Of a stretch of DNA of 22,175 nt, positions 2,452-18,326 are shown one piece after another. The DNA lies in the NCBI GenBank assembly GCA_015680635.1, contig JAABOA010000159.1, positions 1 through 22,175 of the forward strand, written 5' to 3'. Every line of letters begins with the position of its first letter. Within the stretch, counting starts at the first letter, position 1. The notes beneath the pieces were generated by a model that saw only the letters and a program-made list of their open reading frames with translations, had not been told where the DNA came from and did no database searches. The position numbers were made by a program, and so were the translations under genes. This stretch comes from Lunasporangiospora selenospora. Lineage: Eukaryota; Mortierellomycota; Mortierellomycetes; Mortierellales; Mortierellaceae.

Positions 2452-4399
2452 GTAAAAAAATTCGCCTGCTCTCAACTCTTTTATTGACCAAGACGAGCCC
2501 TTGTCGTCAAGTTATGGCTCGCTTGAAAGTATTTAGGAGTAGACAGTCTTGTACTAATTACTGGACCTTGGCTGCTTTCTCCTGCCACATTTATTTTCTG
2601 GTCAATGCTAGGCAATAGTAACTTCAGGACTCCTTTCATTACTTGAAAAAGATATTTTTGCTTTTGAAGAAGAGACGGTTGCTTTAGATACAATAGACTC
2701 GTTCGACTCGATGGAGAATTATGAAAGTCTGGTGAAAGCGACTCTGAATTCTGGCGGTAGTCTTGGTAAGTCAGAATAATTGGTCAGATGAAATATGTTT
2801 AAAAAAGTCTCGACTGACATGGTCACTTGAATAGGTTCAAGATTCTTCTTCAAAGAGAGCAAGGACAGTTACGGAAATACAACCCATCAAGGGACGACAA
2901 CGTAAGGAAAGTGTGGGGGAGGGGGTAAGAGAGAGTAAAAGAGAGCAGAGACATGGATGGAGGAAAAAATGCACTTTTTCTTGCGACGTTCTTGACTCTA
3001 AAGAGCTTCATGTTACTCTTTTGAACCGAATACTTGGTAGTAACTATGCCGGTCCTATTCGATTGTCTGGAATGGACCCTCAAAGAGTATGTCGTTAATC
3101 TGATTTAATGGGTTGTGCAAATCGGCTAAAGGGGGGGGGGAGAGACTAGAAGATTTTACTTTCTTTAGTTTGACTTGGAAGGAGGAGCTGTTGATAGCAA
3201 CCAATTCTATAATATGATCCTGTGTTTCTTAATTGATGAGGACGCAAAAGGTATTCTATTCATTGAGATCAGAGGCCAGGTGTGAGTCTGCTTGATGATT
3301 ATCGAGTTTCAGGAGAGGTCTTGATTGTGCCTGAAACTAACCCTTAGTATACAGGATCTAAACCTGGAGCCTTTTGTTAAAGAGGGTAAGCAGAAAGTGA
3401 CCCATGGAACAATTGCGGGCGTGAGATACGAGTAGTTTTTGTTTTCCTTTCTCACTCTCCAATGTCATCTTACTGTCTTTAATAGGAAAGAAAGTGTTTC
3501 TGTGTGTGCTATTGCAAACTCAGGTACACGGTCAGCAGTTCTACATCCATACATGTCACAAATCAATCAAGAATCTAGGATCTGCTCAGCTTTGTTTTGT
3601 TCAATTCAGTCAAAATATATTTGCGAAAGGCTCGATCGGTACGTCTCAAAAGGGGGCCAACTACATGTTGCAATTATATTGTGGAGAGAAACAGCCCTTT
3701 GAACGACGACTCGCTAAGACTTGAAACTCTAATAGATTACATCCTACCCGCACAGCCATCTCCAAGTCGGTTCTTTAACGTGTGGCACAGCGACAGTGAA
3801 AATAAGTTTGCGATGCAAAGTCCTGCTATCATTCATCACTTTGAAATATCAAGCACTGGCTCCCATGTGGTGACACTTTCTTCCACGGGGAAAAAGCTCC
3901 ACCTCGACGTGTGGGAGCTGAAATCTAGCAAAGCACCCCGCAAAGATGTGTGCCCACCCTCACCTTCGACCTCAAGGACACATCTTGTCCTCAACGACTG
4001 GACCAATGACAACCATAGCTTGTCACTCACGGTATCACGGACTGGATGCCGTATCATTGTTTATAGAGACGAGTTTTCTTCAAAGCCAGCATTCTGTTCC
4101 TACTTATATAACTCGGACATGGGTGGCAGTATCCATCCTTCAAACATTCTGCGTCATCATAGCTCACTCAATCATTTCAGAGGATGTGCGACATTTGCCA
4201 GTGCAACCTCTGGCTGGATTAACCATCTGAGAGACTCCTTACATGCGATGGAATGAGCCTCAGTGTGTACAATGCCTCCAACTTATGGCAGTTTCAGTAC
4301 CATATCTTAATCTCACTTCATCAGGACTTTGACTTGACTAAACGTCTGGTATCATCAGCCATTGGAGGTCACTTTATATGGAAGCAGTCACCATATCAA

Positions 4400-4407
4400 G
4401 TCTCTGT
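4400..4407. repeat. Left target-site duplication of LINE insertion
   Basis: GTCTCTGT here is repeated at 4760-4767. The coding homology to copy C (QxSxW, where the propeller strand ends) stops right after this copy and resumes at the second copy, so the octamer is the duplicated target. Confidence 0.8.
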
Positions 4408-4759
4408 GTAAGAGTTAGACCAAAAGGGTCCGAAGAAAAGGAAGAATGGACAAAATGGTTCAAAGGTGGTTACAATACAGACGGTATGAGTGACTTTTGT
4501 GACTGTGGTAAAAGACAACAGGGCCACATCCTAGATCGATGTCCTGGTTCTGAAACGAAGCAAGAAGGAGACGCAGCTCTCCGAATGAGTCTTTGTGGAG
4601 AGGATGGGAGGGGTTAGTAGATGGAAGTTCTAACTAGATGGGACACTAAAAAACAGTGGCAGATTGGCAGACGTAGGCTAGGATATTCTTAGTAATGTTT
4701 GTTTGGCTAGGCCTGTGGCTAGTAGCCGAAATCTCACTGTATAAAGCATAAAAAAAAAG
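4408..4759 (+). mobile_element. 5'-truncated non-LTR retrotransposon (LINE) fragment
   Basis: This 352-base segment interrupts copy A exactly within a propeller strand and is flanked by an 8-base direct repeat. It ends in a run of nine A residues (4750-4758), the hallmark of target-primed reverse transcription. An open frame from its left edge to TAG at 4615-4617 ends with CDCGKRQQGHILDRCP. This matches the C-x-C-x6-H-x4-C zinc-binding tail found at the C-terminus of LINE reverse transcriptase proteins, including fungal Tad-like elements. About 140 bases of 3' UTR follow. Only the extreme 3' end was inserted, so it is non-autonomous. The clade assignment is tentative; the retrotransposon call is firm. 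Confidence 0.85.
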
Positions 4760-4767
4760 GTCTCTGT
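4760..4767. repeat. Right target-site duplication of LINE insertion
   Basis: Second copy of GTCTCTGT, directly after the A-run of the element. From here the host frame continues as VSVWSIDSGE, matching ISIWDLASG of copy C. Confidence 0.8.
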
Positions 4768-7700
4768 ATGGAGCATTGATTCTGGAGAGTGTCGACAGTG
4801 CATCACTACAAGCCATACAATTGAAAACTGCTTTCTCTCTTTAAATGGAAACCAGCTTGCGATTGTTTTAAAGGATATCTTGTTCATCTACTTGACTTCA
4901 ACAGGCGGCCTTCTCCAGCGCTCGGATATCTCTCATCTTGATTGTGATGGGTTCCTCGAAGGAACTACCAGCATCTATGGGATACTTAACCACAAGTCTG
5001 GGCCAATACTTTCCATTCTGGATTCAGTCAACCTTTTACATAGGAGGGAAACTCATCTACCATCGAACGATGGGTTGATCGTACGGGACGTCAAACCCTA
5101 TTGCCGGAAAAATATTGGCAACGAGATGATAGTTGTCGCTACCAAGCACGGATCTATCTTAGACATCTCTTGAAGGATATTACACGCAGTACCGATGGCT
5201 CTGGTGAGCAACCTTGCATCTCAAAATGCATGTTTAAGTTGAAAGAGGTATCGCAGATCGAAGACTCAATCGAAGAGGTCGTTTATGGGACAACATACAA
5301 GGCGAAAGCTACAGGCAGATATCCAAGGATCTTAGTTATTGACATCACATTCGCCGATAGCCAGTCGAGACAGCTCTGGCTGAACGCTGAAAGCTCGTAT
5401 TTTGTGCGCCAGCAACCCATGCTCGTGACAGTTTCCAGATATGGCAATGGTTTTTATTGCTCGATCTGGAAACTTCCTCGGCCGAGCAGAGACAGGTTTG
5501 AGCTCCTATTGCATTGGATGCTACGCTCTGCTACTGGAGCGTACTCGATTCAATCCTGCCCCCATGGCTGAATATTTAAACTAGTTCTTGTAACCCAAAG
5601 TATTCACCTATCGACAGAAGAGGTTTTCTCGAATGCGAATTTCCGCTATCTTCGTGAAACAATCCCATCCGTTGGGCCCTTTAAGGAGTGTAGCCCAGAG
5701 GCTGCGGATGAAATCCTCCGCTACCTGCATTCACATATCAACAAATACCCAGGACAAGATGACCAGTCGATTTCTGTGATGGCCAAGGTTTGTTCCAGTT
5801 AGAGTTCAACAGACCAAAACAAGTTCAAACAAGTCCTTCTTAGACTGCTGCAGACTCATCCAAGTGTCCACTGGGTTCCTTTGAAAGTCTACAGCAAGGG
5901 ATCCAACCCAATTGAGATCTTGCTCGGAAAGGCTATCACCGACCCGGTGGTGCTCGGCATGGTCCATATCCTCATCGACTATTGTATGAAAAAGGTAAGA
6001 GGTGAGAAGAACGTTACTTATCTTTTGTGTCTCTGTCCGTGTTTGGAGGATATTACCGTTCGGTATGCAGATTTTGCGCAAGAGCCTTTGCCTAAATTCC
6101 ATGTCACGACCGAGAATTTATTATGGACAACTACAAGATTGCGCACCCTCCAACACTCAGTCGATTGTGGACTTCTGACGACTCCAAGATCTACGACTGC
6201 CGGAATCCAATTCTTCAATGTTGTTATTCAGAAGAAAAGACAAGGAATCCACTCAACTCTCAATTTACAGAGGATATCTACGTTGTGTCTGTCAGTTTCC
6301 TTTGGTCATTTATACCCCGTAATCGAGCTCTTGACAGAGAGTTTCCGAAGGTCAATTCAAAGAAGCCGATATCATGGCTTGGGGCACTTTTCCATTTGTT
6401 TCTTTTCAATTTGAATCCTTTCAGTCATGTCTACATCCAACCTCGATCCTATAGCCAGGAGATCCTCGACAACCCTGCCATCGAAGCAATTATCCAGTAC
6501 AAATGGTAAACAAACAAAGATACTAGTAACACACGATGGACTCTATGGCCCTCAGAATAGACATTTTTTTCGAGTGAACTAACATTAAAACGAATGGGAG
6601 GGGTGTCCTCTTGACCTATTTCATTTTCTTCATCTAGGAACAAATACGTTTTTCGACTCTGAATGCTTCGGTTCTCTCTCCAATGTGTCTACGATGTGCT
6701 TGTCCTTGTTGCGGCAATGCTTCAAGTCTATGGAGCTCCAGACTCGCTTCTCTGGGTATTCGTAGTTATTGTTGCCCTATCGTGCATCATTTTGTGGCTA
6801 GAGTTCCTCAATGGCTTGAAGGATAGTATCGGGTTCCACTCACTACGGTGAATGAAGGGGGGTCAATCAGCCCGTGTTATACGGACACGGGCAAGCTAGA
6901 AAACATCAACAAGGATCCAATGAACGCCAGCAGTCAGCGGTCTCGATACCTCAGGTAAACCTTTTAACCCTTTCTTCTCTCATTTTGATTTGTAGAAAAA
7001 AAAGACCAGGTCGGCTACTCTTACTAAACAGACCTGTGATGTTAGATCACCTTTCAATATTTTCGACTTGCTAGTATACCTTATCTGTAAGGCACAAGCA
7101 TCCACCAGATTGCCAACATTGTCCTTGCTGAAAGTTCGGGAGTGATGGTAGACTATAGTTTCAGCGTCATCTTGGTCCTATTGCACTTGGTAAGCGGACT
7201 AGGGAACAGGAGGTGAGGAGGAGATGAGCAAAAAAAACAGAGCCCAATTGACGACTGTTCTTTCCGACAAAGCTCCAGTCATTCTATCTAACTAGCCGAA
7301 CCTTGATCTCATTGCTTCGTCACCCCATTTGCATACAGCTACAATTGGCAGAGCTTCGAGTAAGCGAGACAATGTGCAAGTACATTGCTATTGTCCTCAG
7401 TATTTTGCGTGAGATCAAGGTGTTCTTTATGGTCTTTTCGGGCGTGGTGATCTTCTTTTCGATCGCCATCCTACACGTTCTCTACGGTGTAGGCAGCCAT
7501 ACCTGGGAAGAACCCAATGTCAACCTTCCAAAGAGCTTTTTGGGCGCTGTCACGACAGCGTATCTGATCATGATAATTTGAGATCGATACCTTTTATCTT
7601 TATTTTATTGTAGTTGCTGCTTTTATGGTTCTTGTAACCGTTGCTCTATCGAAAGAAAACACAGTTTAAAACACCTCTCCTTCTTGGATGTTCCACTTTT

Positions 7701-7847
7701 AGGGAGGACGATATGATCCCCTAGCCAACGACATTTTTGAGAATGGCGACGGAAATACCAAGGCTTCCTACAAGAACGGTCCGCTTTTGTTGATGCTAAT
7801 GGTGTACTTTACATTCTCCTCGATCTTAATGCTTAATGTCCTGATCG

Positions 7848-8244
7848 GTAAGGCTGCATGTTGCGCGTGCTAATTGGGCTTCCTTGGCCCTAGTAAGATA
7901 CAGTTTACAAACTGTTGCTGCTGTATATCTTCTGGACACAGTATGACAATGATCAATCTTCATGGTCCCCGTCGACATCTCATTGTTTCTTGGTTGTTAA
8001 AATAATACAAATATTACATTCCGCTAGTACCTCGCGCCTGAATGCCAAAGTCTGTCTGCGAGTGAAGCAATGGCTAGAATAGTTCTGTCCAATGGAAACA
8101 TTTTTTGAGTTAAAGAAACAATCTATGCTGCCGAGGGAGTTTGTTGTAGCCTGTACTCCATCTATCTTGAGGTTCAACGCGTTGATGGAAAAGTAACAGT
8201 GAAGCGTGGATCATATCATCGTCCTTTCCAATGTTCTCGGGCCC
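7848..8244 (+). other. Junction between array copies A and B
   Basis: Copy A ends at the donor after exon 11 (GTAAGG at 7848) and clear similarity to copy B starts near 8245. The stretch between lacks any open frame of note. Weak similarity to the end of exon 7 of copy C seems to begin around 8130-8160 (TTTGTTGTAGCCTGT against TTTGTTGCTCCTGTC). The boundary of copy B may therefore lie earlier and simply be eroded. It probably marks a deletion or unequal-crossover joint. Confidence 0.45.
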
Positions 8245-10328
8245 AGGCTACAACATGGAGTCAAGCTTTCTACCACTACCTCCTGTTCAACATGTACCCT
8301 TTCAGCCATGTGTACATTTGGTCCCGCTTCTACAATCTTGAGATCCTCGATAATCCCGCCATCGGAGCCGTGATCCAATACAAGTGGTGTGTTAATGACT
8401 GTCCTGTAAATTGAGAATGCATAGAAGTAGCTTCATTCACTTTTAGGAACACACTTGTGTATGCGATCTGAATGGCCCGATTTGCAGTACATTCTATCTA
8501 CTCTATCCAGATTGTGAGTGGAGCTATAATGCAGGCGTACCATAAACAAGAAACAATACCGCTTATTGGAGCATTCTCAGCAATCATCTTTCTCTCGTGC
8601 ATATTCCTCTGGCTCGAGCTCTTTCAATGGCGAAAGAGTCAGTATTATCTGCTGCTAGAGGTTATGGATGAATACAAAACCGAGAAAAGGAGATGGATGA
8701 GGAGGAAAAGAGGAGGAATAGTAGTTTTCATTCAAGGATCATTCGATGGATATCTGAAGTATTGTCTCTTTTCACAAGAAAGTGTAAGAGGAACGATCTT
8801 CAGGGCCCATTTGATATCAAGAGATATCGGTCACCATAATTGAGGTATGTCGGAGATACTGAGCTCCCTGTCAGTGGATAGCAATGAACACGAACGTGAT
8901 CTCCTTCTCCAACTCTCAACGCTAAGTATTCCATTCAATGGGTCTCCTTACAACTTGCTAGTTCTAGTCACCTACTCCTACGCTCTCCTCACAAGCATCC
9001 ACCAGATCACCAACATCACGAATCCAAAGGGAGGCGTAACCTCCTACTTTAGTTTCAGCGTCGTGTTTGTGTTCCTCCTTCTGGTATGTTAATTGAGACC
9101 GATGAGGCGAGTAGAAACAGCTAAAGCGTTGGTCAATAAGCCAGAGTACGGTTATCTGTTCATTATCTCACCAAAAATCAACCTCAAGTCGCTCTGTAGC
9201 TGGCTGAACCCCGAGTGAGCGAGGCTGTATGCAAGCACATTACCATTGTGTTTGATATTCTTCGCGAAGTTAAGATATTCTTCATGGCGCTTGTGACTAA
9301 CACACTCTACTTCACGGTAGCCATTGTTCATGCTATTCATGGTGTTGTAGCCGACTCGGGAGAACCCGATAATGCCAGGCTCCCGAGTAACTTTATTGGA
9401 GCCATTAGCACTGTGTACCTGATGATGGCATGTTCCTCTTGCTCTGGAACCCTGATGGATAGTGCAACAGGTATAGTGATTCTCCCACATCTAACAATAG
9501 TTTTACTCTTGAGTATAGGGAGGACGATATGATCCCCTGAGCAATTACATGTATGAGGATGGCTATGGAGGTGGCAAGGGAGCATACAACAATGGGTCAC
9601 TCTTGCTGATGATGATGGTGTACTTTACATTCTTGTCGATCCTGATACCTAATGTGTTGATTGGTGAGTAGATCTGGGGATGCGGAACAAACTCGGTAAT
9701 ACTCTTATTGCAATCAAAACAAGGGCCAACACAGTGCAATGGAGCAGTGACTGAATGGCTCCGAGGACTATAGCATTGATCAACAGTGCCTTTTTATAGG
9801 TCGATGATAGCTGGCACCAGGTGTGGCTCGAGAATAGACTCCAGTATGTTGAAAGCGCCGAGAAAATGTCTTATCGCATTCCTGGTAAGTGTCTTATATC
9901 CCATTGGCATTAGAAAGTTGTCCGTTAAGTGAGAGATAGTGTTTAGCGAGCGTGGGCATTCAGATGACAAGTCTGACATCCTGTGTCGCTGTGCTATCTT
10001 TGTGTACTCTCAAAAGGGATTCCGCGAGACATTCGATTGGTGCCCAGAGACGATTTATTATTAAGCTATACAACATTGGTAGTCCACTCTTACCGAGCAG
10101 ATCACCACAACGCCAAAAGGAGTATCGCCTGTATTGTTGACTCCAAACACCAAAGGCACGACAAAGAGTCCACTGCAAGACGAAAATTAGCAGACTGTTA
10201 TGGAGCAGCTTGCTCGACAAGAACTCCAGATTAGCGCACTCAGGGAAGACCTAAGGGATATCAAGCAAAATGTCCACGCCCTTGTTTCAGCACTACTACA
10301 GTCTCAAGGTCAAGGTTGCAGCCTTTGA
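8245..10328 (+). pseudogene. Array copy B: 5'-truncated TRP-channel pseudogene
   Basis: It starts inside the equivalent of exon 7 (NMYPFSHVYIWSRF, DNPAIGAVIQYKW) and keeps exons 8-13. Exons are 8245-8386, 8447 to about 8844, 8942-9083, 9200-9427, 9519-9663, 9774-9884 and about 10017-10328. Several have exactly the length of copy C (228, 145 and 111 bases). Six membrane segments, GGRYDPL and an S6 close to that of copy C are readable, as is a C-terminal coiled-coil stretch (QLARQELQISALREDLRDI). Damage includes TGA at 8469, TAA near the end of exon 8, an exon 9 acceptor changed from AG to GG (8940-8941), a GC donor after 9427, TAG at 9797 and a frameshift at the start of the last exon. The propeller and N-terminal module are missing. 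It is not expected to make a channel. Confidence 0.85.
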
Positions 10329-11039: not shown

Positions 11040-14000
11040 ATGGCCACGGACATTCCCTCGACACTCTCTAAACCCGAAGCAACTTTGGTTATTGTCGAAC
11101 ACACGCCAGAGTCAGGTTTGGGTCTGAAAATCCGGGGCGGCAATAGTAACCAGGCACACAATATTCGCGACATCCATGACAGGCTGACTAGCAACAGTGC
11201 CGTCAGCCAGGAAGGCAATAACATGAGAAAGCCAACTGAGAGTCTATATGTCGGTGATCTAACCACTATCGGCTCAGGAAGCACACCCGACTCGTGCCCT
11301 AAACCGAATCCCCCTTCTGGTCCATCCATGTCTACTCAACTCGACATCACCCCAGAAAGCAACAGCCTAGTTGAGTTGAAAGTCGAGGACGACGTATTTA
11401 GCGATAATTCAAAAGACCTTAGAGAACTCTCACTAATCCAAAGCGCCGACATGACTACAACGACAATAACTTTCACATCCATCGATGAATATGAGGCCCA
11501 GATGCTGAAGGATCTTGACGCCTGCTCCTCTGGTATGTAATATGATGCTCTCTCCAAGATTGGACCCTGTCTTTGTTTGAAATTCACCTCCACCCCCCTC
11601 CGAAAGAACACAATATAAAGGTACTGACTAGTTTTTCAAGACGATGGAGCTAGGCGACTATTTTACACTCGATCACCCAGCAACCATTACGGCAACCTTA
11701 CTTTTGAAGGAACAAGCAAGTAAGTACAAAAAAAGACTTGAGATAGGCTTGATCTGCACCTGGACCCATTCTCGTTCTAATCACATCTCTACCCAAACGG
11801 ACATGATAGTAACTATTCAAGGCCTATACGACTTGAGGGAAAACAATCTCAGGTATGCCTGGATTAATCTACAAAGAATACACCACTACCATGCCGGAAC
11901 CTCTATTAAACTTAAGAGACCATGATACATTTCAATAATAGCTTCGAGTCAAAAGAGACGAGGCCTTATCACAGCGCGAGCAAGTCTATTATGTGGTGTT
12001 ATGCCTCATGCTTGATCAAGATATTGAGGGCATCGACCAAATGTTTATTGGCAAACTGGTAAGGTATCCATGAGAAAGTAGCTTTGCCAGAAAGCAGAGC
12101 CTTCGTCTCTCTCAACCACTAACCACCGATATTCTTTGGAGTAGAAGATCGACTTAGGCCCTCCCCCTGAGAAAGGTGGGTAGAGTAGAGCATGGTCCGT
12201 GTCACTGACATTTGGCCTGACCAAGTTCTGCAGCTAATTTTCCCTGTCATACCATGATCGTTATCGATAGGAGAAGTCTCGATTGTTCGGGTGCTACTGC
12301 GATATCAAGCTGGACCAAATCTCATTGTTGAACTATGTCAAAAGGGCAAAACAACCCCTGGATCCATACTGCTCTGTTATGTCGAGTTGAGCCAGAGTCC
12401 ACCAAATGTAGTTTCGTATGGTATGTTTGTTGGTTCTGTGGGAGGATCCTATCTAGAGCCGTTTCCACGAGTCTCTGAACAGGAATACTTGGCTTGATTC
12501 TATGATGATAGATTGTATCCTGCCTCGGTTTACCCTGCCTCGGAGGGCATTCAACATTCAACACAACATCAGTGTTGGATCGAGGGACACACTAGCTCCG
12601 GCAACAATTTTCAGAGTTGCGATTTCAGCATCTGGGTCTCATGCTGCAACTCTTGCCAAGACCGGAGAGAAGATGTTCCTTGATCTCTGGGAACTAAGAT
12701 TATCAGAGGCCACTTCGACTGTCACCTTTCCTTACACGCACACAGTATCCAGTGCGCATGCCGCGATCGAGATTTTGACTGGCTATCCTAAAAACCCAAA
12801 GCTAACGCTGTCATGGGACGGATCTCAGATTGTGGTCTACAGGGTGCTAGGATCTTCTCCAGACACGTCTTATTTGTTCGAATACCCTAGAGACATCCAC
12901 CAACAGTCTCACAATCAACAAGTATCTCTTTCGCTCCAACTTTCCAAACGCCACAATCAGTACCCCGGCCTACAATCGCTCAGTGGGGAAGCCATGTTCG
13001 TCAATATCTCCACAGCGGAGTTGGGGGATATTTCCGAAAGATTCGTTGCCTGTGAGCAGAGTGGATTCAGTGTATTCAAGACTACAGAGTCATGGGAGAT
13101 GCTGTACCATATTCCCACTCTGCGATGCTCCACTTTTTCCGGCTATCATCAGGTCATGTCAGCGGCCGTAGGGGGAATCCTTGCATTGCAGACATCGCCC
13201 TACCAAATCTCCATCTGGGACTTAGCTTCAGGGACACCGAAGCATCTCATTGAAACAACAAGAGAGATCCGCAATAATCTTCTCTCATCAACCGGGGAGA
13301 CCTTGGCAGTTGATATAGGGAGGACTTTGCTTTTGTATTCAGCAACCTCTGGAGCTCTTCTTCAACGTCATCACATATCTTCCGAGGAGTGGTTGGGATT
13401 TATCGATGGGGACAGATATATCTATGGCTGCGATCCCTACCAACCTCCACACAACTATTTCATGGCAGACATTGGTGACCCTTTTCTGTCAAAGAAGTAC
13501 ATCATGCCACTGCTAAGCACAGATCAGAATGTTCGAGATATCATTACTGGTGGAGACTGGCAAGGAACCAATATCAAGTCTACACTGGTGGCATATCATC
13601 ATGGCTCGAACCTTGAGGTATCTTATCTTGAAGATTTGCCCTCAAGCACCGAAGACGAATTTCAATGTACCCGGGAATGTATATTAGACGTAAGCGAGGT
13701 CCCTGAGATTGTAATCGGGTCGGAAGTATCATATCCCGGTGGAATAATTACGACCCAAGCAAGTGACCACGGTCTGTTGAAGAATATTTCGCTGTATATT
13801 CGATTCAAGGATGGCAAGATGCGGCAGTACTGGTGGGTTTCATCCAGATTTCACCTCCAGGAGAAATGCTCTCAGTTTACTACGGTGTATGAAAAATCCA
13901 CTCTGCTGTGCCTCTCGATCTGGAGACTTCCGCGATCATCACAAGACGAACTTGAGCTTCTCTTTTACTGGGAACTAAATGGTGTGAACACAGCACACAC

Positions 14001-16949
14001 ACTGAGCACCTGCTCCCATGGAGGTAATCCGACACTCAGTACTAGCGGGGGTAATGTTCGACTCTACGAAGGGACGTCGCGTGTAGCATTAGATGTCAAG
14101 GTGCTATTCAAGACGATCTACAGGATTGATACCAGTAACGAAATGCAATGTTACGCAGCATCAGAAGCTGTGTTCAAGTATATTCGGTCGTTCGCCAATT
14201 ACTACCCCGTCCCTGGCGACCATTCCGTATCCCTGATATCGAAGATATGTAAGGCTCGAGATAAATTCAATCATGAAAGAGTTTCGCTGGTATTGAAGAA
14301 GCTGCTCCAAACAGACAACTCCAACAACACAATCAGTTGGATTCCTCTGCGGATCTATTCAAAAAGATCCAACCCTGTCGGAATTATCCTTGAGAAAGCC
14401 AGGGTCGATCCAACCGTGATTGAGATGGCGCACATCATCATTGAGTACTGTCTCAACAAGGCAAGAGAGTTGGACGATATTACCTACATTCTGTACTTGC
14501 TCGAGTACATGGATGAGTTGACCACCAGGTATGCTGATGTAGCACTTCAGATCACCAGAGGATTTGGGTACATTCGATGCCACGACCGAGAGTTTGTTAT
14601 CAAAAACCACAAGATAGCACATCCCCCGACATTCCGTCGGTTTTGGGCCCTCAATAATCTCAGGATCTATGAGTGCTGGAATCCGATACTTCAGGTACAC
14701 CTCAATGATAAAGGGTTTGATGCATTCAATGACACTTTCACGGAAGAGGTGTTTGTTGCTCCTGTCAATCTCCTCTGGTCATTTGTTCCGAAGGCCCTTA
14801 TCCCGTGTAATGAGTTCCCACTCGGCGACCCGCATCAAACTACAACATGGCTACTTTCTCTTTACCATGCAATCCTGTTCAACATGAACCCCTTCAGTCA
14901 CGTGTATATTCGGCCCCGCTTCTATAAGCTCGAAATCATCGATAATCCCGCCATTGAGGCCGTGATTCAATATAAGTGGTATGTATCGATTGGCCAACGA
15001 CTGTCTTGTGAACTGGAATGACGGAATGAACTTCCTTTAGTCCTGACATAACAGAGTGCTATTCACTTTTAGGAACACTTTTGTGTATGCTGTATGGATG
15101 ATTCGGTTTGTAGCCCAGTTTATCTACTATCTCCTCATTGTAATTGGTGCTTTGATGCAAGTATATCGTAGAGAAAGAGAGCCACTCCTTGGAGTGTTCT
15201 CGTCAATCATTGCCCTCTCTTGTGTGTTTCTCTGGCTCGAGTTCCTTCAGTGGCGAGAAAGTTGGTACCATGTACAACCAGAGATTAAAAAGTGGAAGAA
15301 AACATCAAGAGCGCTGTTCTTTACAGGAACAAGTGAAAAGAACCGTAGAAAGGATCCATTGGATACCAAGCGATCGCGGTCCCCGTATTTCAGGCAAGTC
15401 AGAGACTGGCACAAGAGTTACGATGGTAGTATAGAGTGTGTGCAAAGTCAAAAGCTAATATTTATTGACACTTAACCTTTTAATAGATCGTCCTACAATC
15501 TGCTGGATCTAGTAACTTTCTCCTACCCTCTCATCACGAGTATCCACCAGATTGTCAGCATATTGCGGGTGGATAAGAATGCCATGACTGCCGACTTTAG
15601 TTTCAGTATAGTTTTTGTGTTCCTCCACTTGGTACGTAATCGAGAACAGCCAGGGGTAGAGTGAGCCACATACAACTGGAAATATTATGTATTTTTTAGG
15701 CTATACAATTAACCGTTTCTATTGGATCACTCTGTAGCTGGCTGAACTCCGAGTGAGTGAGAATGTGTGCAAGTACATTACCATGGTATTTGGTATCATC
15801 CACGAGATCAAGGTGTTCTTCATGGTGCTTGCAGCCAGTATGATCTTCTTCACAATTGCGATTGTCCACGTCATTCATGGTGCTGTGAGTGACTCTGAGC
15901 GACCCTCTGATGCCAGTCTCCCAAAAGACTTTCTTGGAGCTCTCAGCACAGTGTACTTATTGATGGTAGGATCCTTGGATTCGATATCCTGGAGTGGAAT
16001 GAAACTTTTTGCGAATTGTTTGTTGAGGGGTCGGAATTTTAACCTTGTCATACTCTCACTCTTAACCACACCCCATGTTGTTGGCTTTAGGGAGGATGGT
16101 ATGACCCTCTGAACAAAGATATGTACATAGATGGCGAGGAAGGGATCATGGGAGCATACAAAAATGGATTGCTCCTGTTGATGGTGATGGTATATTTTAC
16201 ATTCTCGTCGGTCCTGATGCTCAATGTGTTGATTGGTGAGTCGATATTTATATGCGGATCAAACACATTATCACTTTACTCAATCTTGTAGCTAGTGCTA
16301 GTACTAACACGGCAAATGAATCCATTGGATGAATGGCTCTGGTGCCCATTCTTTTGTCTCTCAACAGCATTGATCAATAGTGCTTTTGTTAAGGCTGATG
16401 ACAGTTGGCGCCAGGTGTGGCTCGAGAACAGACTCCAGTATATCGAGAGCGCCGAGAATATGTCGTATCACATCCCTGGTAAGTAACCCATATCCCATTG
16501 GCATCACTGAGTTATCTGTTGAGTAAGATGTAGTGTTTAGTGAACTTGAGCTCTCAGTCGATAAGTCTGACATCCTGTGTCCCTGTGCTACTCTTTTGTA
16601 ATCTCAACAAGGGTTCCGCAACACATTCGATTGGTTCCCGGAGACGATCTATTATACAGCCACTCAATACCAAGTGAAGCAGTACTGGAGAAGAGTTACC
16701 AAGAAGGACGAAGAAATTATCTTTGACGATAATCAATATCTCCTCGGGCACGAAACTGGAGAAAATAGCAATGGCAATACGAGAACGCATAGAGGTGACC
16801 CGCAAACGCATGGGGAAATATCAGCCGCCAGCACCGATGCTGACAAATCACAGGCTATATATGCCGAACTCAAGGTAGAGATGTCAGATATCACGCGGGA
16901 CATTCATGCCATTCTAGCAGCCTTACAACAAATCCAAGATCAAAGTTAG
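11040..16949 (+). CDS. Array copy C: WD40-like beta-propeller fused to TRP-type ion channel, 13 exons, intact
   Basis: Thirteen exons (11040-11532, 11641-11719, 11810-11852, 11942-12058, 12145-12175, 12271-12420, 12512-14978, 15073-15393, 15487-15631, 15738-15965, 16091-16235, 16368-16478, 16612-16949) join without stop or phase error into 4668 bases, 1555 residues. ATG 11040 sits in caccATGG. Residues 1-164 are Ser/Thr-rich and probably disordered. Residues 165-305 form a beta-rich module I do not recognise. Residues 340-840 show repeated WD40-like strands (FLDLWEL, ISIWDLASG, LCLSIWRLP). Residues 850-1110 are helical. Membrane segments lie near 1137-1157, 1165-1186, 1239-1260, 1270-1286, 1308-1329 and 1385-1406, with a pore loop around 1346-1365 (MGGWYDPL). 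S6 reads LNVLIALINSAF, as in TRP channels, followed by a TRP-helix-like VWLENRLQYIE and a C-terminal coiled coil. A membrane cation channel gated through its large cytosolic part is inferred. Ligand and membrane are unknown. Confidence 0.85.
12421..12511 (+). other. Intron 6 of copy C, open in frame at its 5' end
   Basis: The donor is GTATGT and the acceptor GATGATAG. The matching intron of copy A (3639-3735, GTACGT to CTAATAG) sits at the same codon and phase. If unspliced, the exon 6 frame runs on to TGA at 12495-12497, adding about 25 residues. Copy A does the same and stops at TGA in a matching CTTGA context, which is probably the branch site. Splicing restores DCILP in C and DYILP in A, so removal is the normal state. 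Confidence 0.75.
15394..15486 (+). other. GC-AG intron (intron 8) of copy C
   Basis: The only phase-consistent donor at the end of exon 8 is AG followed by GCAAGT, the consensus of rare GC-AG introns. The acceptor is TTTAATAG. The corresponding position in copies A and B has a GT donor (GTAAAC and GTATGT), so the GC form appears derived in the intact copy. Confidence 0.7.
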
Positions 16950-17310: not shown

Positions 17311-18326
17311 CCGGCTGAACTCCAGGTGGGGGGGATCATGTGCAGGCCCATCGTCATTGTGCTCTGTATTCTTTGAGAAATATTAGTGTTCTTCATGATG
17401 ATTGCAGTCAGTGCTCCTCTCCATAGTCACTATTTCTCATGTTATTAATGGTGTAGGTGGCTCAACGGAATATGCTAGTGCCAACCATCCGAATGTCTTT
17501 CATGGTGATACCACAACCGTATATCTGGTGGTGTTTAGATCTTGAAGCCCCAGTATTATGCATTAGGCTTTTGGAGTCGTAGCTGGTTATTGGGTTTTGG
17601 ACGTTCCTGAAATAAGGAAAGCAGGATTCCTAAAAAACAACATGTGTGAGGACAAGGGAGTATAAAAAATAAGCTCCTCTTGGTGATAGCTGACTGATGA
17701 TGGCGTACTTTACATCCTCGACTACCTTGTTACTCAATATGCAATGTGTTAATTGGTGGGCCAATTCGAAGCGCGGGGTAAACTCACTCTCAACGTGTCC
17801 AACGTTGTGGATAGCATCATTGCTAATAAAACACATAGGGTACCTGACCAATCGGACTTGACAACTATTGAACTCATCTCGGAACAGTATTAATTCACGG
17901 TACCTTTGTCAAGACTGACGACTCTTGGTGATAGGTTTTCCTCGTTAACAAGCTTCAGTATGTTGAACGTACTGATAACAGACCCATCACGTCGCTGGTA
18001 AGCGGCTCATATCCTGCCGATATTGCTGGTGTATCTTCTGGAAGATGTTAGAAATTGGCGAATGCAAGAGCCTTCAGACATCCATTGTAGCATTAACGCA
18101 ATTCCATTGAAAAAGGCTTCTACGAGACATCCAAATGGTTTCCTGAGTTGGTCTAGTATACAGCTCCTCCATGCCAAGTGAATACTAAAGAAGAGCTGTC
18201 AAAAGGAATGAGGAAATTCTCTTTGACAATGACAGCATTCACAAAACACCAAGCCAACAAGTAACGAGTGCCACGGAATCTACTAATCACTCGATTCGTG
18301 TGATAGAACTGAATGACATTGAATAA
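17311..18326 (+). pseudogene. Array copy D: highly eroded 3' relic of the TRP-channel gene
   Basis: Base-level similarity to copy C is visible in four blocks separated by intron-like gaps. They are the exon 10 equivalent (17311 to about 17535, from CCGGCTGAACTCCAGG through GTGTTCTTCATGATG), exon 11 (about 17640-17755, ending near AATGTGTTAATTGGTG), exon 12 (about 17887-18000, CTTCAGTATGTTGAACG) and exon 13 (about 18110-18240). Each has stops and several indels, so no frame survives. Retained introns mean it arose by DNA duplication, not by retroposition. It is the most diverged copy of the array. Upstream exons were not found. Confidence 0.75.

Follow-up and report, generated by a model that had tools for sequence, protein, structure and literature searches.

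Gene C (GenBank locus BGW38_001791) is one of four tandem copies, A, B, C and D, of a gene family found in a 22,175-nucleotide stretch of DNA from the soil fungus Lunasporangiospora selenospora (assembly GCA_015680635.1, contig JAABOA010000159.1, positions 1 to 22,175, forward strand), referred to here as ‘the window’. Our analysis supports the presence, in a single frame of this gene, of a WD40-type beta-propeller, a helical linker, a six-helix TRP-type (transient receptor potential) channel and a coiled-coil-like tail, and it supports the pairing of propeller and channel as a family trait. A propeller of this kind is a ring-shaped fold that as a rule binds other molecules. Judged from sequence and predicted folds, gene C probably encodes a subunit of a TRP-type cation channel in which a propeller-bearing cytosolic N-terminal part replaces the ankyrin domain, and which may be gated by a ligand or partner. 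Their combination in one chain suggests that channels of this type can be opened in a different manner. No description of a propeller–TRP fusion was found in the open-licence literature searched. A first-pass annotation of this DNA had proposed a single gene of 13 exons whose continuous frame fuses a propeller to a TRP-type channel. Its coordinates, exon count and frame are borne out, as is the fusion, with the propeller ahead of the channel in every family sequence that has both; the gene is not a lone one, but a member of a large Mortierellaceae family.

Gene structure and coding frame

Rebuilt from splice signals and relatives, the coding sequence of gene C spans 4653 nt and specifies 1550 amino acids (aa) plus a stop, with 0 internal stops (Table 1). 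Up to exon 7 it matches the GenBank protein, P0001, whose implied acceptors for exon 3 and exon 5 lengthen the product by 5 aa and so account for the 1555 codons of the first-pass annotation. The start is backed by the similar N-terminus of paralogue P0003; the end of exon 8 (15393) was placed using relatives. We looked for the intron 8 site in 14 loci: it was not located in 7, and one locus was copy B again, which leaves gene C, with its GC donor, and five paralogues (C136, C5, C231, C31 and copy B), each of which has GT. Given the base composition of the window, an open frame of 820 codons would occur by chance with a probability of ~3e-20. Against paralogue C136, the nonsynonymous and synonymous divergences (dN and dS) are 0.38 and 1.59 for exon 7, and 0.15 and 1.06 for exon 10, which encodes S5. 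Because dN is below dS in both exons, purifying selection is, by this sequence comparison, acting on both halves of the gene. dS was saturated in 7 of 8 exon 7 pairs and in 4 of 8 exon 10 pairs, and therefore only the remaining ratios are usable.

The channel part

Single-frame Pfam scans saw neither part of the protein clearly, and the spliced stretch was needed to detect the channel. In that stretch Ion_trans is found with an E-value of 1.2e-11 and 44.7 bits (cut-off 25); exon by exon, in the exon 8 and exon 10 frames, it is not, and none of the six Ion_trans matches in the genome falls on the contig of gene C. The structural model of a relative, P0094, contains S1–S6 and a pore helix, and its predicted transmembrane fold is TRPV-like, with a linker domain and pre-S1. 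As in TRP channels, which have few or no gating charges, the S4 of gene C (ADFSFSIVFVFLHLLAELRV) has a single R. A TRP-type helix with the conserved W and R follows S6 (WRQVWLENR). In HMMER alignments the W and R of the family pair with WKFQR of the TRPM2-like entry 6co7, whereas against WKLQW of the TRPV4 entry the W alone is paired; the strict W-3-W-3-R pattern is matched by 94 of 243 relatives and not by the rest. The C-terminal heptad run has 7 a/d positions, a number equalled in 0 of 5000 shuffles.

The N-terminal part

The AlphaFold model of gene C's own exon 7 shows a WD40-type propeller, with four-stranded blades in a ring, followed by a second beta region and then by helices. Residues 4–378 of the model share this fold with WD40 propeller proteins (Ski8, Atg18/PROPPIN, WDR5 and Apaf-1), which the gene C family resembles at the profile level too: the family profile matches WD-40 protein 2ymu (E 1.7e-12), and further profile matches are to Apaf-1 and WDR5. 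No WD40 repeat rises above the Pfam cut-off, in gene C or in the relatives scanned, and 0 of the 93 PF00400 matches in the genome are on the contig of gene C. The ‘long propeller-like region’ of the first-pass annotation thus includes a propeller; the model gives one of about seven blades, plus a second beta region of ~12 strands, rather than a single long propeller. Of the checks which that annotation had proposed, the profile searches recovered Ion_trans in the spliced channel and left WD40 invisible to Pfam in gene C, though visible in family profiles, and structure prediction returned the propeller in exon 7 and S1–S6 with a pore helix in the relative. Ahead of the propeller lies a small module (11942–12420) that its hidden Markov model (HMM) matched in 114 of 245 sequences; no significant Pfam match was obtained with four segments of relatives. 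A suspected resemblance of this module to PP2-like lectins was unsupported, the four segments yielding only unrelated families (E 0.19 and 0.23).

The main rival to a sensory propeller is that the N-terminal part serves as a scaffold, in structure or in trafficking, which places or assembles the channel and senses nothing, as the propeller and helical solenoid of coatomer and IFT-A would lead one to consider. The order of elements in exon 7 (propeller, second beta region, helices) fits such a role, and Foldseek, given the exon 7 model, puts proteins of IFT-A, the 90S/SSU processome and COPI at the top. These matches, however, have root-mean-square deviations (rmsd) of ~18–34 Å and TM-scores of ~0.3 or less, so that a global scaffold-like arrangement is not established, and the second beta region has only ~12 strands. 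We consider a scaffold possible but doubtful, and on account of the rmsd we rejected settling on that role from the IFT-A and COPI matches. A family missing from the structure-neighbour listings (VIA) is not thereby excluded.

Propeller and channel across the family

We scanned 245 sequences, comprising 243 relatives, gene C and a distant paralogue on contig C139, with HMMs of four regions; 28 of the relatives, and gene C, had been used to build these HMMs. Propeller and channel are both present in 227 of the 245, nearly all of them single database gene models, and the propeller comes first in 227/227. Among sequences of at least 1200 aa, 203 of 207 have both. A channel without a propeller match occurs in 10 of the 245, and no channel match in 8. 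Since relatives were gathered via the linker and channel, or via a long region, presence of the channel is expected by selection; presence of the propeller is not. The homologue searches cover the best 12 of 12, 120 of 277 and 120 of 183 matches, and the named homologues among the matches listed all belong to genera of the Mortierellaceae, a placement that draws in part on a published account (PMC10386755).

The L. selenospora genome contains 31 exon 7 matches, spread over 17 contigs, and 16 matches to the S5 exon. Exon 7 sequence lies upstream, on the same strand, of 15 of these 16, although what precedes it in copy B is just the exon 7 linker end, and in C139 just a weak match to the linker; the remaining S5-exon match, on C81, is itself weak (33% identity). 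Viewed from the other side, the S5 exon lies within 0.6–1.1 kb of 14 of 16 exon 7 3′ ends. The other two ends are close to the end of a contig: on C453 ~0.8 kb is left, and on C298 ~1.0 kb, which would be too short to hold the spacing together with the exon as found in 9 of the 14. In the C139 paralogue, propeller (E 1e-24) and channel (1.6e-57) stand in the same order as in gene C, and the border intron falls at the same place (YK/W in gene C, FK/W in C139).

Relationship to known channels

Known TRP channels mostly carry ankyrin or TRPM-type N-terminal parts. In 11 family members scanned with Pfam, a test of sequence only, no ankyrin match was found at E≤0.01, and the helical segment aligns loosely with the ankyrin region of TRPV6 (rmsd 5.5–7.5). 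The propeller stands where animal TRPV carry ankyrin repeats, in line with the ‘different input domain’ of the first-pass annotation. By sequence and predicted fold the gene C family is a TRP-type channel; it is not filed as TRPV, because Pfam showed no ankyrin repeats in the 11 members. In predicted fold it is nearest to animal TRPV (TRPV6, TRPV2 and TRPV3), from which it differs in having a propeller in its N-terminal part, in having no ankyrin match in those members and in being about twice as long. By sequence, the channel profile matches TRPM2 best (TRPM2-like 6co7, 8.1e-13). In contrast to TRPM2, the Pfam matches of the 11 members include neither a TRPM N-terminal family nor one of NUDT9 type, and the 50 structural matches listed are TRPV.

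The fungal TRP channel TRPY1/Yvc1 has six or more membrane helices, and its C-terminal region is acidic. Some gene C family members, such as P0009, also have an acidic tail, but the family differs in the propeller of its N-terminal part. TrpY1-like channels form the largest of the fungal TRP groups covered in one paper (PMC3410928), and the channel might on that account be a relative of TRPY1/Yvc1 in an internal membrane, to which the propeller was added later. Such an origin seems unlikely, for the TRP folds among the matches listed are mostly TRPV, and the closest PDB sequences are TRPM2 and TRPV, in a comparison that did not include Yvc1. A group of 32 TRPV-like genes in Rhizophagus irregularis, whose expansion the authors date to the Mucoromycota level, resembles the gene C family, by description only, in being expanded, and the section on these genes mentions no propeller (PMC10234402). 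TRP expansions are also described, in the pertinent section of a second paper, in Glomeromycotina and Neocallimastigomycota (PMC8778642). In these passages the expansions in early-diverging fungi come without a tested purpose (PMC8778642, PMC10234402); the gene C family offers a concrete, testable architecture.

Evidence to the contrary

Several observations weigh against gene C as a propeller-bearing channel. Its architecture is read from sequence and prediction, and the models are of moderate confidence (predicted local distance difference test 74.4 for exon 7 and 73.5 for P0094; predicted TM-score 0.54 and 0.57). The channel model is that of P0094, not of gene C, and the P0094 propeller is ~100 aa short; compared with TRPV over full lengths, Foldseek gives P0094 a TMq of ~0.2 and a best E of 5.3e-5. 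Pfam finds no WD40 in the exon 7 frame of gene C (nothing at E≤1), and the WD40-type matches in relatives reach ~1e-6 yet miss the curated cut-offs. A 44-sequence profile returned only propeller proteins, and no TRP, among the 60 matches listed; 1 of 11 relatives scanned, P0085, lacks Ion_trans. An internal stop occurs in 2 of 8 near-full-length paralogous exon 7 sequences (6 of 8 are stop-free; the comparison took 8 of 9 near-full-length matches, omitting C298), and a longer query, running beyond exon 7, meets one or two stops in several paralogues counted there as stop-free. In the selectivity filter, the position at which gene C has W is R in 136 of 166 relatives matching the pattern and W in 0 of 166 (167 of the 243 relatives fit a first pattern, 166 a second, and the others were dropped), so that conduction by gene C may differ from that of the relatives or be absent. 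Finally, the GenBank model of gene C ends before the channel.

That last point, together with the unusual filter and the non-standard donor of intron 8, raises the possibility of two products, a soluble propeller protein from exons 1–7 and a separate channel from exons 8–13, or of a channel part that is dead in gene C. P0001 has 1140 aa and ends with residues from intron 7, without the channel. We think either version very unlikely: the frame stays open through exons 8–13, exon 10 is under purifying selection, intron 8 is kept with GT at the five paralogous sites located, and both parts occur together in the single gene models counted above. The GC donor is the likely reason for the truncated GenBank model. 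Database names of family members are divided between ‘WD repeat-containing protein 38’ and ‘Transient receptor putative cation channel sub V member’ 1 or 4. With names split in this way, and with a model of gene C that drops the channel, annotation hides the propeller–channel architecture. The Pfam accession PF23317 is precomputed on many relatives; local Pfam scans of P0009, P0016 and P0079 did not return it.

Proposed mechanism

The architecture of gene C is carried by a single spliced frame that stays open, the order of the domains, the conservation of that order across the family and the predicted folds; the tetramer, its ion, ligand and membrane, and its gating are inferred. The large cytosolic N-terminal part would comprise the small module, the seven-bladed WD40-type propeller, the second beta region and the helical linker, and four subunits would form the pore. 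The propellers may act as sensors for a cytosolic protein or small ligand, whose binding would shift both linker and TRP helix and so open S6; cations, probably including Ca2+, would then flow into the cytosol. A propeller on a TRPV-like pore would offer a new input module, separable from the pore, for studies of pore opening by a cytosolic part.

The family evolves by duplication, in tandem in the window, and by decay, with the channel more conserved than the propeller: mean identities among six Lunasporangiospora paralogues are 0.53 and 0.30, respectively. Receptors whose inputs vary while their output is shared would be expected to show this pattern. A bolder proposal, which we put forward only tentatively and hold to be rather improbable, is that the Mortierellaceae possess a large repertoire, with rapid turnover, of receptors made of one protein each, whose TRP-type calcium channel is conserved and is gated directly by a cytosolic propeller that varies. 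Were this true, these sensor-channels would play a part like that of chemoreceptor or immune-receptor gene families, with input domain and calcium output fused in one chain.

Features of the window and other loci

Table 1. Gene C, its parts and the other family copies in the window
Feature	Position	Strand	Remarks
Gene C, BGW38_001791	11040..16949	+	13 exons, 1550–1555 aa; open spliced frame
Exon 1	11040..11532	+	N-terminus, no fold assigned; start resembles paralogue P0003
Exon 2	11641..11719	+	Spliced frame
Exon 3	11822..11852	+	GenBank (P0001) acceptor 12 nt upstream
Exons 4–6	11942–12058, 12148–12175, 12271–12420	+	N-terminal module common to relatives, no fold assigned
Exon 7	12512..14978	+	Propeller, second beta region, helical linker, pre-S1; acceptor from P0001 and P0003
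WD40-type beta-propeller (predicted)	12523..13647	+	~28 strands, 7 blades by our count
Second beta region (predicted)	13690..14061	+	~12 strands; exon 7 model, no fold assigned
Alpha-helical linker (predicted)	14095..14598	+	Exon 7 model, helices from residue 528
Linker domain and pre-S1	14599..14946	+	Conserved DNPAI..YKW motif
S1 and S2 (exons 7/8)	14947..15262	+	Mapped from model of relative P0094
Intron 8	15394..15486	+	GC donor (AG/GCAAGT), GC-AG type; GT at matching site in five paralogues
S3 and S4 (exons 9/10)	15491..15755	+	
S5	15807..15878	+	
Pore helix and filter motif GGWYDP	15930..16111	+	Across intron 10; filter at 16091–16111
S6, LNVLIALIN	16166..16381	+	Across intron 11
TRP-type helix WRQVWLENR	16397..16471	+	
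Heptad (coiled-coil-like) C-terminal stretch	16869..16934	+	
Copy A	3485..7849	+	Propeller and channel exons spread over several frames
Copy B	8244..10313	+	Starts in linker, without propeller; channel exons present; TAA in exon 8 frame
Copy D	17314..18233	+	Remnant of S5 and post-S6 exons

Copy B looks, from its sequence, like a 5′-truncated, broken copy; its TAA sits where gene C reads SPYFR. Besides the window, three of 55 loci (L053, L054 and L055) were read in detail. L053 holds the distant paralogue on C139 (2563–8100), of a second subfamily, with the order propeller, linker, channel and the filter AGRYDP. L055, on C81, has no recognisable family gene on detailed reading. At L054 (2489–5506, on C453), an open frame of 1005 aa that comprises the family's N-terminal module, propeller and linker, diverged from gene C, ends near the contig end. 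Elsewhere in the window, an open frame at 425–1513 has a cytidylyltransferase-like Pfam match (6.2e-7) and is perhaps, at a guess, a nicotinamide-nucleotide adenylyltransferase.
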